A stretch of DNA of 63,206 nucleotides from Vulcanococcus limneticus LL (lineage in GTDB: Bacteria > Cyanobacteriota > Cyanobacteriia > PCC-6307 > Cyanobiaceae), in the NCBI RefSeq assembly GCF_002252705.1, contig NZ_NQLA01000012.1:1-63206 (forward strand), given 5' to 3'. The position numbers were made by a program, and so were the translations under genes. The notes under the pieces were generated by a model, which searched no databases, had not been told where the DNA came from, and was given only the letters and a program-made list of their open reading frames with translations. Numbering within the stretch: position 1 is the first letter of the stretch; each line of letters opens with the position of its first letter. Below are positions 52,630 through 60,455 of this stretch, piece by piece.

Positions 52630-54039
52630 ATGGGCAGCAAACCGGGCAGCGAACCGAGCCGCACCCCCGGCCGCCGCCCCAGCCTTGAGCCCCGCTTCGA
52701 CGCCATCCCGGAGAACCCCTTCGTGGCGCCGCTGCCTGCGGACTTCCTCTGGGGCGTGGCCACCTCCGCCCACCAGGTGGATGGCGGCACCACCAACAAC
52801 GACTGGGCCCGCTTCGAGCGCCGGCCCGGCGTGATCCGTGATGGCACCGTCAGCGGCCCGGCGGCCGACCACTGGAACCGCCTGGCGGAGGACACGGCCC
52901 TGATCCAGGAGCTGGGGGCCAACGCCCACCGGCTCTCGATCGAGTGGAGCAGGCTTGAGCCCGAGCCCGGCCGCTGGGACGCGGCGGCCTGGGAGCACAG
53001 CGCCGCCGAACTCGCCCTGCTACGGGCCGCCGGCATCGAGCCGATGGTGACTCTGCTGCACTTCACCCTGCCCGCCTGGCTGGCGGAGCACGGCGGCCTG
53101 ACGGCGCCGGACTTCCCCCAGCGGCTGGAGGTCTTCGCCGCCGAGGCCGGCCGGCGGCTGGGCCCCCAGGTGCGCTTCTGGTGCACCGTGAATGAGCCGA
53201 ACGTGCAGATGCTCTTTGGCTACGTGACCGGCCAGTGGCCACCTGGACTGAAGGATCCCGCCCGGGCCGTGCGAGCGTTCGCCGGCCTGGTGCGGGGCCA
53301 TGCCCTGGCGGCGCGGGCCCTGCGGGCAGCCAGGCCCGATGCCCGCATCGGCGCGGCCGTGCACCTGGTGCTGGTGGAGCCGCTGCGGCGCTGGTGGGCC
53401 CTGGACCGGCTCGCCGCCAGCCAGGTGGAGAAGGGCTTCAACTGGCCCTTCTACGACGCGGTGCGCGACGGGGTGGCCCGGCTGCGGCTGCCGGGCTTCC
53501 CGCCGCTGGAGGAGCCCATGGCGAAGCTGCTGGACTCCGCCGACTTCGTGGGAATCAACTACTACCGGCGCAACCTGGTGGGCTTCGATCCGGGCGAGCC
53601 TGGCTGGGCGGGCCTGCACCAGGGGCCGGGACTGCGCAGCGACGCCGGCGCGGAGATGCACCCCCAGGGGCTGCTGCAGCTGCTGCGCCGGACCTGGATG
53701 CGCTACGGCCTACCGCTGATCGTTACCGAGAACGGCGTGGCCGACGCCAGCGGCCAGCTGCGGCCCACCTACCTGCGCTCCCACGCCTACGCCCTGGCCT
53801 GCGCCGCCGCCGAGGGCATCCCAGTGCAGGGCTACTTCCACTGGTCGCTGATGGACAACTTCGAGTGGACCGACGGCTATGCGCTGCGCTTCGGGCTCTA
53901 CCGGGTGGACTTCACCAGCCAGCGGCGCATCCCGGGTCCGGGGGCCGAGGAGTTCCGGCGGCTGGCGGGCCTGCTGCGGGCAGGCGCCGCTCCGGGGGGC
54001 GTCGCAGCGGGAGCCCAGGAGGCCGGCCCTCAGGCCTGA
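52630..54039 (+). CDS. GH1 family beta-glucosidase
   Basis: A 469-residue family 1 glycoside hydrolase. Motifs are FLWGVATSAHQVDGG, HRLSIEWSRLEPEPG, the acid/base TVNEPN, FVGINYYRRNLVG, the nucleophile VTENGVAD, and YFHWSLMDNFEWTDGYALRFGLYRVD near the C-terminus. It has no signal peptide, so it should act on small beta-glycosides in the cytoplasm. Its last 10 bp overlap the convergent carotenoid oxygenase gene. Confidence 0.95.
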   Translation: MGSKPGSEPSRTPGRRPSLEPRFDAIPENPFVAPLPADFLWGVATSAHQVDGGTTNNDWARFERRPGVIRDGTVSGPAADHWNRLAEDTALIQELGANAHRLSIEWSRLEPEPGRWDAAAWEHSAAELALLRAAGIEPMVTLLHFTLPAWLAEHGGLTAPDFPQRLEVFAAEAGRRLGPQVRFWCTVNEPNVQMLFGYVTGQWPPGLKDPARAVRAFAGLVRGHALAARALRAARPDARIGAAVHLVLVEPLRRWWALDRLAASQVEKGFNWPFYDAVRDGVARLRLPGFPPLEEPMAKLLDSADFVGINYYRRNLVGFDPGEPGWAGLHQGPGLRSDAGAEMHPQGLLQLLRRTWMRYGLPLIVTENGVADASGQLRPTYLRSHAYALACAAAEGIPVQGYFHWSLMDNFEWTDGYALRFGLYRVDFTSQRRIPGPGAEEFRRLAGLLRAGAAPGGVAAGAQEAGPQA

Positions 54040-55637
54040 GCCCAGCTGCCGTGCAGGCCATGGGGGACCGCCAGGGGCAGCTCCAGCACGGCCACCTCCG
54101 CCAGGGAAGCGGCATCCAGGATCACCAGATCGCTCGCACAGCGGGCCCCGTTCCACACCAGGCAGAGCACCCAGCCACTGTCTTCGGCGGCGCTGGCTCC
54201 GGCGGCGCTGTCTTCGGCGGCGCTGGCTTCAGCGGAACTCACCTGCGTGGAGCTGGCTCCGGCCGTTGCACCCGGCCGCGGCACCATCACCGGCTCGCTC
54301 ACGAAGCCCCGCGGCGCGGCGCTCCAGAGGCGCCGCTCCCCCGTGGCCAGATCCAGCTTCTCGATCGCCTGCAGGGGGGCGTTGCCCTGCTCGGCTTCCG
54401 TCACGGCCATCCAGGCATAGCGGGCTTCCAGGCCCACCCGGGCCGGGTTCACCATGGCGAACTCACAGGTGCGTGGCTCAAGCAGCTCGCTGCGGGCGGT
54501 GCCGGCGGCCAGGTCGAGGCGACAGCGCAGCAGCTGGCCAGCGGGGATCGTGTCGAAGTCCACGGCGCGGAAATCCACGCCCGGGGCGATGGAGGGGAAA
54601 TCGGGATAAACGATCGAATCCACCACCAGCTCGCCCGTGGCCGCGTCTTCGAAGGCATTGAGGTGGTGGAACACGAAGCCCTCGGGGGCGGGGATCTGCA
54701 GGGGCTGGCGACCGGCCTGGGTGCCGCCCTCGCGGGGAATCAGCCAGAACTGGCCCGCCTCGCCGGGCTTGGAGCTCAGGCACTGGGCCGCCCCCTTCTG
54801 GCCCAGCACGAAGCCGGTGGGGTTGAAGGCCACGGCGTTCTGCAGGAACACCGCCCAGTTGGGGGTGATGGCGAAGTCGTGCAGGAAGGCGAAGCCCTTG
54901 AAGCGGTGGCTGGAATCGGCCAGCACCTGGCCGGCCTTCACGGAGGCCTGGCCCGCGGTCCCCGGCTGATCGGCGCTGGCGAACTCCAGCAGCCGGATCG
55001 TGCTGCTGGGGCCGGTCTTGACGCCGAAGGTCACCATCCGGGGGCCGCCGTGGTGGCCGGGATCGAAGCGGGGGTGGGCGCTGAAGGCCTCCCCCGGCTT
55101 GAGCAGCCCATCCAGCCGCGAGAGGCCGCGGGTGCGCAGGCTGTCGGGATCGAGGGCATGGGGCTCGGCCGCCTCCCAGAGCGCCAGCAGCTGCTCGCCC
55201 AGGCGCACCACGTGGGTGTTGGCGATGTTCTTGAGCCGCAGGTCGAAGGCGTTGGCCAGCACGCCGCCGGGCTTCTGGGTGCCGAACACGCCGCGGTAGA
55301 GAACGCGATCGGCCTGCTCCTCCGCCAGCCAGCCCTCGGTGCGCACGAAGCGATTACGCAACTGCGCCTGCCCGCCCGCAAAGCGCAGGGCGGTGATCAT
55401 CCCGTCGCCATCGAAGGGGTGATGCACCCAGTGGCCGCCACGCTCAAGCCGACCGGGGCCATTGCGGTAGAGGGTGCCACGCAGCTCCGGCGGAATCGCG
55501 CCGCGGGCGGTTGTGAGTTCCACCCCGTCGAGCTCCACACCCACGTTGCGGAAGGCACTGGCCCAGTCGTCGCGGTCGTAGGCGGGCGCTGCAGCCCGGG
55601 CAGCAGCGTCGACCTGGGCGGTACCTGCAGCGGTCAT
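54030..55637 (-). CDS. carotenoid oxygenase (RPE65/CCD family)
   Basis: A 535-residue non-haem iron oxygenase that cleaves carotenoids or apocarotenoids. Features are the N-terminal YRNGPGRLERGGHWVHHPFDGDGMI, FDPGHHGGPRMVTFGVKT, FAFLHDFAITPNW, the HHLNAFEDAATGELVVD segment, and a C-terminal PHGLHGSWAQA carrying the last His. The expected four iron-ligand His occur in family order. A repeated Ala/Ser/Glu insert near residues 465-490 is unusual. ATG at 55637. Confidence 0.92.
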   Translation of the reverse strand: MTAAGTAQVDAAARAAAPAYDRDDWASAFRNVGVELDGVELTTARGAIPPELRGTLYRNGPGRLERGGHWVHHPFDGDGMITALRFAGGQAQLRNRFVRTEGWLAEEQADRVLYRGVFGTQKPGGVLANAFDLRLKNIANTHVVRLGEQLLALWEAAEPHALDPDSLRTRGLSRLDGLLKPGEAFSAHPRFDPGHHGGPRMVTFGVKTGPSSTIRLLEFASADQPGTAGQASVKAGQVLADSSHRFKGFAFLHDFAITPNWAVFLQNAVAFNPTGFVLGQKGAAQCLSSKPGEAGQFWLIPREGGTQAGRQPLQIPAPEGFVFHHLNAFEDAATGELVVDSIVYPDFPSIAPGVDFRAVDFDTIPAGQLLRCRLDLAAGTARSELLEPRTCEFAMVNPARVGLEARYAWMAVTEAEQGNAPLQAIEKLDLATGERRLWSAAPRGFVSEPVMVPRPGATAGASSTQVSSAEASAAEDSAAGASAAEDSGWVLCLVWNGARCASDLVILDAASLAEVAVLELPLAVPHGLHGSWAQA

Positions 55638-56415: not shown

Positions 56416-56580
56416 ATGTCAAAAGCACAACTGATCGCTTTTCTGGCCAAGGCTGAGGCCAGCCCAGCCCTGCAGCAGCGGATCGATGCCGCCGCCGATG
56501 CCAGCGCCGTGGCAGCCCTCGCCCGCGACGAGGGCTTCCTGTTCTCCCCCGCCAGCCTCGCCCGTCACCTGCGGGGCTGA
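56416..56580 (+). CDS. orphan Nif11-type small protein
   Basis: A 54-residue protein consisting almost only of a Nif11-like domain: [34 protein letters not shown] and the ending LARHLRG. Elsewhere such domains are leader peptides of ribosomal peptide natural products. Here no Cys/Ser-rich core or cleavage (Gly-Gly) motif follows, and no modification enzyme is in the window, so it is probably a stand-alone or remnant Nif11 protein. It is easy to miss because of its length. It ends 4 bp from the convergent fabI stop. Confidence 0.75.
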
Positions 56581-56584
56581 GCCC

Positions 56585-57367
56585 TCACATCCCGGTGATG
56601 CAGTAGCCGGCGTCCACGTAGATCACCTGCCCGGTGATCCCCGAGGCCAGGGGGCTGGCCAGGAAGGCCGCCGTGCCGCCCACCTCCTCCTGGGTCACGG
56701 TGCGGCGCAGCGGGGCCTTCTCCTCCACGTTGTGGATCATGTCGAGGATGCCGCCGATGGCGCTGCTGGCCAGGGTGCGGATCGGGCCGGCGCTGATGGC
56801 GTTCACCCGCACCTGTTGGTCGGGGCCCAGTTCGGCGGCCAGGTAGCGCACGGAGGCCTCCAGGGCCGCCTTGGCCACGCCCATCACGTTGTAGTTGGGA
56901 ATGGCCCGCTCGGCGCCCAGGTAGCTGAGGGTGATCACGCTGGCGCCGGGGTTGAACAGGGGCTTGGCGTGGCGGCAGAGGGGCGCCAGGGAGTAGGCGC
57001 TCACCTCCAGGGCGCGGGCGAAGCCCTCAGGACTGATCGCGCTGTAGTCGCCGATCAGCTCCTCCTTGCCGGCGAAGGCCAGGCAGTGCACCAGCACGTC
57101 GATCGAGCCCCACTGCTCCTTGACCCGGGCGAACACGGCCTCGATCTGGGCCGGGTCCTGCACGTTCAGGGGCTCGAACAGGCTGGGGGCGAGAGGGGCG
57201 GTGAGATCGCGCACCTTGGTCTCGAAGCGGCCCTTCTCATCGGGCAGGTAGGTGACGCCCAGCTCGGCTCCGGCCGCATGCAGCTGCTGGGCGATGCCCC
57301 AGGCGATCGACTTGTTGTTGGCGATGCCGGTGACGAGGGCCTTCTTGCCGCGCAGATCGAGGAGCAT
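56585..57367 (-). CDS. fabI: enoyl-[acyl-carrier-protein] reductase
   Basis: A 260-residue NADH-dependent reductase of the last fatty-acid elongation step. Signatures are KKALVTGIANNKSIAWGIAQQL, LVHCLAFAGKEEL, the catalytic Tyr/Lys region YLGAERAIPNYNVMGVAKAALE, NAISAGPIRTLAS, and the end VIYVDAGYCITGM. ATG at 57367 was chosen at the usual family start. Divergent from the photolyase-like gene. Confidence 0.97.
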   Translation of the reverse strand: MLLDLRGKKALVTGIANNKSIAWGIAQQLHAAGAELGVTYLPDEKGRFETKVRDLTAPLAPSLFEPLNVQDPAQIEAVFARVKEQWGSIDVLVHCLAFAGKEELIGDYSAISPEGFARALEVSAYSLAPLCRHAKPLFNPGASVITLSYLGAERAIPNYNVMGVAKAALEASVRYLAAELGPDQQVRVNAISAGPIRTLASSAIGGILDMIHNVEEKAPLRRTVTQEEVGGTAAFLASPLASGITGQVIYVDAGYCITGM

Positions 57368-57535
57368 CGGAGGAGCGGAGGGGGTGAGGTCGTCCAGCCG
57401 GCTGGCCGGACGGACGGTGCAATCGGGCGATTCTCCCCCAACCCGGGCCCCCAGCTCCTGAGCCAAGTCGTCACCGCCAGCCCCCCTTCGTCAGGGTCCG
57501 GCCGCCAGGATCGGCCGCGACGCCAGTGCGCCGCC

Positions 57536-59014
57536 GTGCCGGAGTTCCCCCAGCCCGATCGCCCCACCGTGCCGGCGCCGCCGACCCTGCAGGGGGTCCC
57601 ATTGGCCTGGCCCACCGCCGCCGGCGACCTGCCGCGCCAGTTCCCCTCCCGGGCCGCCCTGGCCGCCGAGCTGCAGCGCCAGTTCCCCGCCGCCCTGGGC
57701 CCAGGCCCCGACCAGCCGGCGGAAGCCGGCCTGAGCCCGATCCCGGGGGGGCGCCGGGCCGCCGAGGCACGCCTGGCCGCCATCGAGCCGGGGCATTACG
57801 GCAGCAGCCGCAACCACATGGATGGCGCCGTGACCCGCCTCTCCCCCTACATCCGCCACGGCGTCCTGACCCTGGCGGAGGTCCGCGACGCCGTGTTCGC
57901 CTGGCTCCAGCGCAGCGGACGCCCCCGCCGCGAGGCTGAGAAGCTGATCAACGAGCTGGGCTGGCGCGACTACTGGCAGCGCCTCTGGCGCCAGCACGGC
58001 GAGGCCATCTGGCACGACCTGGAGCCGCTCAAGACCGGCCACGCCCCCAGCTCCTATGCCGCCGAGCTGCCCGACGACCTGCGCCAGGGCCGTACGGGCC
58101 TGGCCTGCATCGACGGCTTCAGCGCCGAGCTCAGCGAAACCGGCTGGCTGCACAACCACGCCCGGATGTGGCTGGCGGCCTACGTGGTGCACTGGCGCCG
58201 GGTGCGCTGGCAGGCGGGCGCCCGCTGGTTCCTGCAGCACTTGCTCGACGGCGACCCCGCCAGCAACAACCTCAGCTGGCAGTGGGTGGCCAGCTGCTTC
58301 AGCACCAAGCCCTACCTCTTCAACCGCGCCAATCTGGAGCGCTACGGCGGCGATCGCTTCTGCCGCGGCTGCCGTGCCGCCGCGGCCGGCACCTGCCCGT
58401 TCGAGGCCAGCTACGAGCAACTGCAGGCCCGGCTGTTCGGCGAGCAGGCCCCGGCCAGGTCCCCGTCCGATTCCGTTGGTCCGCCGGTCAAGGGCGGCGC
58501 AGCACCCGCCGCAGCCCTGCCCTCCCCCGCCCGCCCGGTCCTCTGGATCCACGGCGAGGCGCTGGGCCCCGCCAACCCCGCCCTACGGGCCCACCCCGGC
58601 AGGCCGGCCCTGTTCGTGTTCGACGACGCCCTGATCGCCGGCCACACCACCACCACCAGCGGCGATGGCGCTGCCGCCGGTGGGGCCGCCAGCCCCCTGA
58701 ACCTCAAGCGCCTGGCCTTCCTGCAGGAGTGCCTCCTGGAGCTACCCGTGACGATCCGCCGCGGGGATGGGGCCGCCGAGCTGCTGGCCTTCGCCCAGCG
58801 TCACGGGGCCGACGCCATCGTCACCAGCGCCGGCGTGGACCCGCGCTTCGAGGCGATCCGCGCCCGGCTGGCAGCCGCGCTGCCGGTGCAGGTGCTGACC
58901 CCGGAGCCCTTCGTGGCCCTGAAGGAGGAGGAGACGGATCTGGGGCGCTTTGGCCGCTACTGGCGCCGCGCCGAAGCGAAGGTCTGGGCCGGATTCCCCG
59001 GGCACGGGGCCTGA
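57536..59014 (+). CDS. photolyase/cryptochrome-like flavoprotein with swapped domain order
   Basis: A 492-residue protein. The FAD-binding domain comes first (about residues 70-300): RLSPYIRHGVLTLAEVRDAVF, INELGWRDYWQRLW, IDGFSAELSETGWLHNHARMWLA, LLDGDPASNNLSWQWVASCFS and FNRANLERYGG. A Cys motif CX2CX7C lies at 276, 279 and 287. After a linker, residues 333-460 look like the Rossmann half normally found at the N-terminus: ALGPANPALRAHPGRPALFVFDD, LNLKRLAFLQECLL and VTIRRGDGAAELL. Ordinary photolyases have the opposite order. DNA repair or blue-light signalling are both possible. The GTG start is the first plausible one; no ATG lies before the FAD domain. Confidence 0.85.
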   Translation: MPEFPQPDRPTVPAPPTLQGVPLAWPTAAGDLPRQFPSRAALAAELQRQFPAALGPGPDQPAEAGLSPIPGGRRAAEARLAAIEPGHYGSSRNHMDGAVTRLSPYIRHGVLTLAEVRDAVFAWLQRSGRPRREAEKLINELGWRDYWQRLWRQHGEAIWHDLEPLKTGHAPSSYAAELPDDLRQGRTGLACIDGFSAELSETGWLHNHARMWLAAYVVHWRRVRWQAGARWFLQHLLDGDPASNNLSWQWVASCFSTKPYLFNRANLERYGGDRFCRGCRAAAAGTCPFEASYEQLQARLFGEQAPARSPSDSVGPPVKGGAAPAAALPSPARPVLWIHGEALGPANPALRAHPGRPALFVFDDALIAGHTTTTSGDGAAAGGAASPLNLKRLAFLQECLLELPVTIRRGDGAAELLAFAQRHGADAIVTSAGVDPRFEAIRARLAAALPVQVLTPEPFVALKEEETDLGRFGRYWRRAEAKVWAGFPGHGA

Positions 59015-59087: not shown

Positions 59088-59735
59088 TCAGGGCTGGGCC
59101 TGGCCAGCCGGAGCGCCGCCCCCCCGCAGCAGCGCCTCCTCCTGCTCACGCACCTCGGCCGCCGGCGGCAGCAGATCGGATTCCTCGAGCAGCGGGAAGC
59201 GCTCCACCTTCACCTCGGCGGCGCTGCGGGGCGGCTCCGTCCACTGCCAGCTGCTGCGTGGCGCTCGGGCCCGGCAGAGGGCCTCCAGCTCGCGGCGCAG
59301 GGCACGGCGCACATCCGCTCGGGCCACCGCCTCGAAGAACTCGGCGCGGCTGGCCACCCCCGAGCTGAAGGGGGCCGTGCCGTTGCCGTTGAACAGCCGG
59401 GCCGGATCCACCAGCCAGCGCGGCCGGCAGGTGCCCCGCTGGCTGGTGTCGGTCTCGAGCCAGAGGTGCAGGCCGTAGCCGTCGGGCTGGCTCACCACCG
59501 CCAGGCCGTCGTGGGGCTGGACGCGCTGCAGTGGATAGATCGCCCAGCTGGCGCGGCGATGGGCCGGCACGCAGCCCGCCAGCAACAGCCCCGCCAGGGC
59601 AAGGGGCAGCAACGGCTGGGGCCGTGCGGGCCCTCGGGCGGTCGGTGCTGGCGGCACGGCGGGAGAGGCAATCGCAGGGATCCTGACGGAGTGCCCCCGA
59701 CGACTTGGCTCTCCAGGCGACAATCCGCTCCCCAT
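59088..59735 (-). CDS. putative lipoprotein
   Basis: A 215-residue protein with a lipobox-like end of signal peptide (LALAGLLLAGC, Cys at about 55). The stretch before the hydrophobic core is unusually long, about 40 residues of Pro/Ala/Arg, so the start may be wrong; no better ATG, GTG or TTG was found between 59735 and the core. The mature part contains YPLQRVQPHDGLAVVSQPDGYGLHLWLETDT, FEAVARADVRRALRRELEALC and a C-terminal acidic helix. Function unknown. Confidence 0.65.
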   Translation of the reverse strand: MGSGLSPGEPSRRGHSVRIPAIASPAVPPAPTARGPARPQPLLPLALAGLLLAGCVPAHRRASWAIYPLQRVQPHDGLAVVSQPDGYGLHLWLETDTSQRGTCRPRWLVDPARLFNGNGTAPFSSGVASRAEFFEAVARADVRRALRRELEALCRARAPRSSWQWTEPPRSAAEVKVERFPLLEESDLLPPAAEVREQEEALLRGGGAPAGQAQP

Positions 59736-59828
59736 GCCGGGCCATCCCATACCGCCGGGAGCGCTCCGCCGCGTCCCCAGCACCCCTCTGCCGCGCCGGC
59801 CCCGCGCCGCCGCACCCACCTGTCGCCC

Positions 59829-60455
59829 ATGGTCCTCACTCCCTCCACGATGCTGCCGCTGGGCACGCCCCTGCCCGCCTTCCGCCTGCCGCGGGTGAAC
59901 GGGCCCGCCAGGCCCACCGGCCAGGGCCCCGCCGCCGCCGACCCGGCCCTCTCAGCCGGCGCTCCGCTCGACTCCCGCGACCTGGCGGGCCGGCCGCTGC
60001 TGGTGCTGTTCCTCTGTGCCCACTGCCCCTTCGTGAAGCACATCGAGCCCGAGATCGGCCGCCTGGAGCGCGACTACGGCGATCACCTGGGGATCGTGGC
60101 CATCGCCAGCAACAGCATCCTCACCCACCCCCAGGACGGCCCCGAGGGCCTGCGGCGCCAGGCCGAGCACCAGGGCTGGCGCTTTCCCTACCTGTTCGAC
60201 GCCGACCAGCACATAGCCCGGGCCTTCCGGGCGGCCTGCACGCCGGATCCGTTCCTGTTCGACGCGGCGCAGCGGCTGGTGTACCGGGGCCAGCTGGATG
60301 CCAGCCGTCCCGGCAATGGGCTGGCCTGCGACGGCCGGGACCTGCGGGCCGCCCTCGACGCCCTGCTGGCCGGCGATCCCGTCAACCCGGAGCAACAGCC
60401 CGCGATCGGCTGCAACCTCAAGTGGCACCCGGGCCAGGCACCCGCCTGGGGCTGA
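59829..60455 (+). CDS. thioredoxin-family peroxiredoxin-like protein
   Basis: A 208-residue thioredoxin-fold protein of the AhpC/TSA-redoxin type. The active-site-like motif is LVLFLCAHCPFVKHIEPEI (CAHC at about residues 63-66). The rest follows the fold: YGDHLGIVAIASNSI, FPYLFDADQHIARAF, TPDPFLFDAAQRLVYRGQLD. Related proteins carry the same C-x-H-C pattern. A low-complexity insert (GPARPTGQGPAAADPALSAG) sits before the active site. No signal peptide. A role in thiol redox or peroxide defence is likely, with unknown partner. Confidence 0.85.
   Translation: MVLTPSTMLPLGTPLPAFRLPRVNGPARPTGQGPAAADPALSAGAPLDSRDLAGRPLLVLFLCAHCPFVKHIEPEIGRLERDYGDHLGIVAIASNSILTHPQDGPEGLRRQAEHQGWRFPYLFDADQHIARAFRAACTPDPFLFDAAQRLVYRGQLDASRPGNGLACDGRDLRAALDALLAGDPVNPEQQPAIGCNLKWHPGQAPAWG

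Follow-up and report, generated by a model that had tools for sequence, protein, structure and literature searches.

Vulcanococcus limneticus LL encodes a protein in which an FAD-binding domain of the photolyase type is followed, rather than preceded, by a photolyase alpha/beta domain. We read it, with a probability of roughly 70%, as a single-chain, reverse-order photolyase of the Phr6 type that carries Fe-S cysteines, has its alpha/beta domain docked, stems from a fusion of phr4 with phr5, and more likely acts on CPDs. The gene lies in a window of 63,206 nucleotides, positions 1 to 63,206 of contig NZ_NQLA01000012.1, which is the whole stretch of DNA that was analyzed. Computational comparison establishes the identities of the domains, the conserved residues, the co-occurrence of the two units, and their split or fused distribution. 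The reversed arrangement itself was published by Haney et al. (2022; PMC9426592), who define Phr6 of Cyanobium/Synechococcus as a reverse-order photolyase and also describe it as split phr4/phr5. Our analysis adds the pairing of Phr4 with Phr5, the repeated change between fused and split states, and a predicted CPD-type active site.

In the mechanism we propose, the N-terminal domain would hold FAD and bind a pyrimidine dimer, and electron transfer from light-excited, reduced FAD would split the dimer. Four cysteines in and after the FAD domain may coordinate an Fe-S cluster, as their counterparts do in FeS-type photolyases, and the C-terminal alpha/beta domain would dock on the FAD domain as a putative antenna, with its cofactor, or as a structural cover. 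In split relatives, a separate Phr5 protein would do the job of the C-terminal domain, and the LL gene would have originated when phr4 was joined to phr5.

The frame translates into its 492 residues without an inner stop, and the same GTG start is retained in Synechococcus sp. GreenBA-s, which supplies the nearest row to the LL protein (90% over 404 tree columns). A longer frame opening at 56486 would overrun the opposite-strand fabI gene (56585-57466).

Table 1. Features of the phr6-type gene and its divergent neighbor, in window positions
Feature	Residues	Position	Strand	Remarks
phr6-type gene, Vulcanococcus limneticus LL		57536..59014	+	492 aa, GTG start, TGA stop
N-terminal FAD/catalytic domain (Phr4 unit)	~15-310	57578..58465	+	Pfam FAD_binding_7 138-258; VIA rows span 16-310
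Active-site E140 to W143 (E. coli E274, W277)	140-143	57953..57964	+	alignment to 1dnp; E 81/81, W 80/81
First candidate Fe-S ligand, C191	191	58106..58108	+	81/81; aligned with Cys of own-genome Phr2
N207 to M211 (E. coli N341, M345), CPD-type lesion contacts	207-211	58154..58168	+	N 81/81; M 73, L 8
W248-Q-W250 (E. coli W382, W384)	248-250	58277..58285	+	each W 81/81
Other candidate Fe-S ligands, C276, C279, C287 (CX2CX7C)	276-287	58361..58396	+	81/81 each; 62/62 in partly overlapping set
Linker	~303-331	58442..58528	+	low model confidence; variable among fused relatives
C-terminal photolyase alpha/beta domain (Phr5 unit)	~332-490	58529..59005	+	Pfam, model, VIA, Foldseek, profile match
RFGRYW, strongly conserved in Phr5 unit	471-476	58946..58963	+	R471, F472, W476 each 62/62
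fabI (enoyl-ACP reductase), divergent neighbor, outside the system		56585..57466	-	

The C-terminal half is a photolyase alpha/beta domain

The sequence-only reading of this gene had placed the FAD domain first, and the Pfam FAD_binding_7 match (E 5e-24) within residues ~15 to 310 confirms that placement. The C-terminal half is weak by single-sequence search, because its match to DNA_photolyase (PF00875; residues 358-452) stays under the curated cut-off, at E 0.0024 with the whole protein and 0.00019 with the half alone. A profile (A4) of 33 Phr5 domains was used in profile comparisons with local alignment. It matched the N-terminal domain of the own-genome class I-type photolyase L001 with 95.9% probability over 88 columns, that of L002 with 94.7% over 134 columns, and own-genome Phr2 with 60.3% over 141 columns, whereas four unrelated window proteins included as controls reached at most 0.6%. 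L001 is itself closest to the NCBIfam model of 8-HDF photolyases (E 2e-186, below that model's cut-off). Against PDB sequences, the Phr5 profile gave a single weak match (E 0.23).

Modeled alone from 33 relatives, the C-terminal half reached a pLDDT of 85.1 and a pTM of 0.76. The first 15 VIA rows for this model are all photolyases or cryptochromes (Z 11.9 to 9.9), led by CryB (3zxs; Z 11.9, 146 aligned) and including PhrB (4dja and 5kcm; 11.5), the Thermus photolyase (1iqr; 11.2), and the Anacystis enzyme (1owl; 9.9); the first 44 Foldseek rows are likewise photolyases or cryptochromes. Universal stress proteins have a similar fold, and one could take the half for a domain of that kind instead of a photolyase antenna domain, given VIA Z scores of up to 9.8 over 112 residues and weak Pfam Usp matches in the LL protein (E 0.098) and its relative L087 (E 0.0051). 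Photolyases nevertheless come first with both aligners and across more residues, the two strongest profile matches are to photolyase N-terminal domains, and Phr5 co-occurs with Phr4, so that we consider a stress-protein domain highly improbable.

Model, aligner, and profile matches thus identify the C-terminal half as a photolyase alpha/beta domain placed behind the FAD domain. The resemblance originally noted for residues 333-460 held up on superposition, where photolyases rank best, and extends over residues ~333-490. The model of the full fused protein has a pLDDT of 90.7 and a pTM of 0.91, with ten-residue means of 57 to 78 across residues 301-330. The usual beta-1 motif of photolyases is WxRRDLR; beta-1 of the Phr5 unit is without the Arg of this motif, so the antenna may be absent.

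Phr4 and Phr5 occur in the same genomes

We searched 292 genomes of the phylum for Phr4 (match to the query P0001 at E ≤ 1e-25) and Phr5 (profile match at E ≤ 1e-15). P0001 matched in 64 genomes, six of which were set aside as non-Phr4 (G017, G056, G117, G136, and G352, Phr7-like; G176, Phr4-like and without the cysteines); G360, which has a Phr5, was kept despite missing cysteines. The remaining 58 Phr4 genomes are exactly the 58 genomes that have a Phr5. This pairing depends on the cut-offs, becoming 58 of 59 with G176 counted and 58 of 64 with all six counted, and the 58 genomes are related to one another, hence not independent events. For comparison, the control Phr2 (PF04244) occurs in 34 of the 58 paired genomes versus 54 of the 234 others.

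Outside the family of LL, all 42 paired cyanobacteria carry Phr4 and Phr5 in separate gene-size frames. The two lie within 2 kb of each other in 24 pairs, far apart on one contig in 10, and on different contigs in 8, so that 18 pairs are not neighbors, although for the 8 on separate draft contigs the real distance is possibly smaller. Genes that lie far apart can yield only two polypeptides; the ten far-apart Phr5 genes are open reading frames of 136-143 aa. In four genomes the adjoining gene encodes a TldD/PmbA-type peptidase (three by Pfam, the rest by similarity), and in three it is an LptF/G gene (two by Pfam, the rest by similarity). At L189, L190, L191, and L197, the unlinked Phr5 gene is directly upstream of the TldD/PmbA-type peptidase gene. 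One genome (G407) has a second, incomplete phr4-phr5 pair, L187, beside an intact one.

The LL protein appears to be a fusion of the two parts of what looks like a two-subunit enzyme, Phr4/Phr5, and not a circular permutation. We lean, by a little, toward the broader view that Phr4 and Phr5 would constitute an obligate two-protein photolyase of several phyla, a Fe-S catalytic subunit with an antenna subunit in trans, that has repeatedly been fused in reversed order and would combine a CPD-type active site with a (6-4)-type Fe-S site; these short photolyase-like proteins would then not be single-domain relics. Photolyases are regarded as enzymes with two domains on one chain, and an always-present, often distant partner gene would, if this view is true, turn the alpha/beta domain into a real subunit.

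Fused and split forms have changed repeatedly

Among 62 parsed loci, 20 are fused and 42 split; the family of LL accounts for 20 fused and 33 split, and the 9 loci outside it are all split. In a named-genome scan, from which we used the best 80 of 392 relatives, 35 are fused and 45 split. By their labels, these best 80 of 392 comprise 29 fused and 38 split in Cyanobacteriota, 1 and 4 in Chloroflexota, 4 and 0 in Acidobacteriota, 1 and 0 in Vulcanimicrobiota, and 0 and 1 each in Planctomycetota, Pseudomonadota, and the unassigned. Some MAG labels are doubtful: a Singulisphaera MAG (L151) clusters with Roseiflexaceae, and a Tatlockia MAG (L154) falls among cyanobacteria.

The state changes at least five times on a tree of 79 of the 81 rows (a quick search without bootstrap or AU test, leaving out L142 and L166, where the core motif was not located), with three changes forced by well-supported branches; on a 62-row tree it changes at least four times, two of them forced. 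The fused or split state has therefore switched at least three times. A further FAD-domain tree with the own-genome Phr1-3 and Phr7-like rows (75 of 96 rows, 21 judged close to others having been dropped) had long branches and an outgroup that did not fall on one side, and was unusable for rooting.

On unrooted trees, the split relatives that lie beyond the family lead us to infer fusion of phr4 and phr5, not fission, as the probable direction. Had a single ancestral photolyase gene undergone a true circular permutation and later been split in relatives, the final order would be identical, and this course of events could accommodate both the unsettled root of the family trees and the four Acidobacteriota rows among the best 80 of 392, all fused. 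The sampled pairs outside the family are, however, split in all 42 cases, and the linkers of fused rows vary in length and composition; we consider such a permutation unlikely. Of the proposal in the sequence-only reading, the reversed order and the photolyase nature of both halves stand, whereas a circular permutation or domain swap fits less well than fusion of two genes.

At the 42 split loci of the 62, Phr5 lies in frame +2 in 27, in the same frame after a stop in 11, and in frame +1 in 4. In the 22 of these rows where a Phr5 start could be placed, its offset from the Phr4 stop is between -4 and +24 for the 18 that belong to the family and -1, -1, 291, and 356 for the 4 outside it. A programmed frameshift joining Phr4 to Phr5 (an idea of Haney et al., PMC9426592) is not favored as a general explanation, since the junction varies; in single species it may operate. 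The C-terminus of several split Phr4 proteins (e.g., L017, L019, L030, and L093) is a basic tail, LARPKR or GKKGKK for example, at the place taken in fused proteins by a linker that is rich in Pro and Ala or otherwise variable. A single-sequence query with P0001 returned no viral copies from viral_contigs.

Four invariant cysteines mark a candidate Fe-S site

The CX2CX7C motif reported earlier is present as C276, C279, and C287, and a fourth invariant cysteine, C191, which that report lacked, joins it: all four are conserved at 62 of 62 loci and likewise in a second set, overlapping the first in part, where all 81 rows have them. The three had been called unexplained; with C191, they align with cysteines of the own-genome Phr2, an FeS-type photolyase that in the PDB matches the S. 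elongatus (6-4) photolyase 8ijy best and PhrB 4dja as well. Haney et al. 2022 (PMC9426592) found four such cysteines in every Phr4 and Phr6 of theirs. We regard the four as candidate ligands of a putative Fe-S site resembling the one in FeS-(6-4) photolyases. Two Phr4-like proteins, L188 (G360) and L186 (G176), miss all four together, the pattern that one cluster site would show, and ten Phr7-like rows lack the last three in 10 of 10 and the first in 6 of 10. The L188 genome keeps a Phr5 downstream, and L186 has a different C-terminal region, with a similar FSQFW motif at its end; the 13.8% match of this region to the Phr5 profile is a hint only.

Active-site residues favor CPD repair

Aligned to 1dnp with an offset of 134, E140, W143, N207, M211, and W250 of the LL protein correspond to E274, W277, N341, M345, and W384 of E. 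coli photolyase, which we take to have active-site roles in CPD repair. They are conserved in 81, 80, 81, 73 (plus 8 Leu), and 81 of the 81 rows, in which W225, W248, and W250 vary little or not at all. No Trp aligns with E. coli W306; a conserved Tyr, Y174, is nearby. The own-genome L001 has the identical set E, W, N, M, W, whereas the corresponding residues of own-genome Phr2 are I, W, H, L, W, and His at the position of N207 is presumably an active-site feature of prokaryotic (6-4) photolyases. Because these residues match L001, unlike Phr2, they favor a CPD-type active site, contrary to the published (6-4) prediction, and the lesion would more likely be a CPD than a (6-4) product.

Haney et al. 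(PMC9426592) predicted (6-4) repair from the Fe-S cysteines. They report that disruption of phr4 in RS9916 cuts UV-C survival 20-30 fold, that the mutant is sensitive to UV-C and not to UV-B, which they take as consistent with (6-4) repair, and that protection of E. coli by phr4/phr5 shows no significant difference between light and dark. The UV-C-only phenotype and the light-independent protection count against CPD repair. A reversed-domain (6-4) photolyase, as these authors propose, would also fit the cysteine set, which is that of FeS-(6-4) enzymes, and the structural search with the FAD part, where PhrB 5kcm is best (Z 16.4) and a Vibrio (6-4) enzyme fills rows 2 and 3. It sits poorly with Asn in every row where Phr2 has His and with Met in 73 of 81 at M211, as in the CPD-type L001; class I photolyases, moreover, supply the nearest PDB sequences (1tez, E 2e-30), with PhrB at only E 1e-4, and PF04244 (DPRP) is unmatched in the LL protein at E 10 (E 0.33 in the relative L118). 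We judge (6-4) repair somewhat unlikely.

The lack of a significant light-dark difference in protection could also mean that repair has been lost and that the protein is a light sensor or a light-independent DNA-damage protein. The CPD-site residues and W225, W248, and W250 are too nearly invariant to sit easily with this, and Phr7, the nearest kin according to Haney et al. (PMC9426592), who equate it with an ssDNA CPD photolyase, shares these residues; loss of repair is decidedly unlikely. A CPD-type active site beside cysteines of the FeS-BCP type would separate two features formerly read together, and exposes the published (6-4) prediction for Phr4 and Phr6 to direct test.

Relation to known photolyases

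NewPHL, or short photolyase-like, proteins were reportedly described by Emmerich in 2020 and Xu in 2021. PMC13274461 (2026), which cites Emmerich et al. 2020, ascribes to NewPHL/SPL both an inverted topology and the repair of CPDs in ssDNA; by the accounts in PMC13274461, PMC9178010, and PMC9426592, this group, including Prochlorococcus Phr7, has the inverted topology in common with the LL protein. In 10 of 10 Phr7-like rows, the CPD-site residues and the HNH motif agree with those of the LL protein, but the rows are without the four-cysteine set; in a profile comparison, the Phr7 C-terminal domain did not match the Phr5 profile (0.3%). The Phr6 proteins of Haney et al. (Cyanobium NS01 and PCC 7001; PMC9426592) have the same FAD-then-photolyase order, four cysteines, and a single open reading frame, and, going by their published description, show no difference in kind from the LL protein. 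In a literature search conducted mostly at the level of titles and abstracts, we recognized no further publication describing the reversed order.

FeS-BCP, or prokaryotic (6-4), photolyases such as PhrB and the own-genome Phr2 share the four aligned cysteines and the FAD-domain fold, but differ in having the usual domain order, a PF04244 N-terminal domain, and His in place of N207. Class I CPD photolyases (own-genome L001; 1owl and 1dnp) share the active-site residues and give the best sequence matches, but have the alpha/beta domain before the FAD domain and are without the Fe-S cysteines.

Gene neighborhood

The neighboring GH1, carotenoid oxygenase, hisB, fabI, and DegT aminotransferase genes are also retained in Synechococcus sp. 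GreenBA-s. The carotenoid oxygenase gene (54030-55637, minus strand), of RPE65 type, adjoins hisB. Adjoining phr6 is an open reading frame (59088-59819, minus strand) that has no Pfam match and is kept at 85% identity in GreenBA-s, which also retains the AhpC/TSA-type redoxin gene at 59790-60452 (plus strand).
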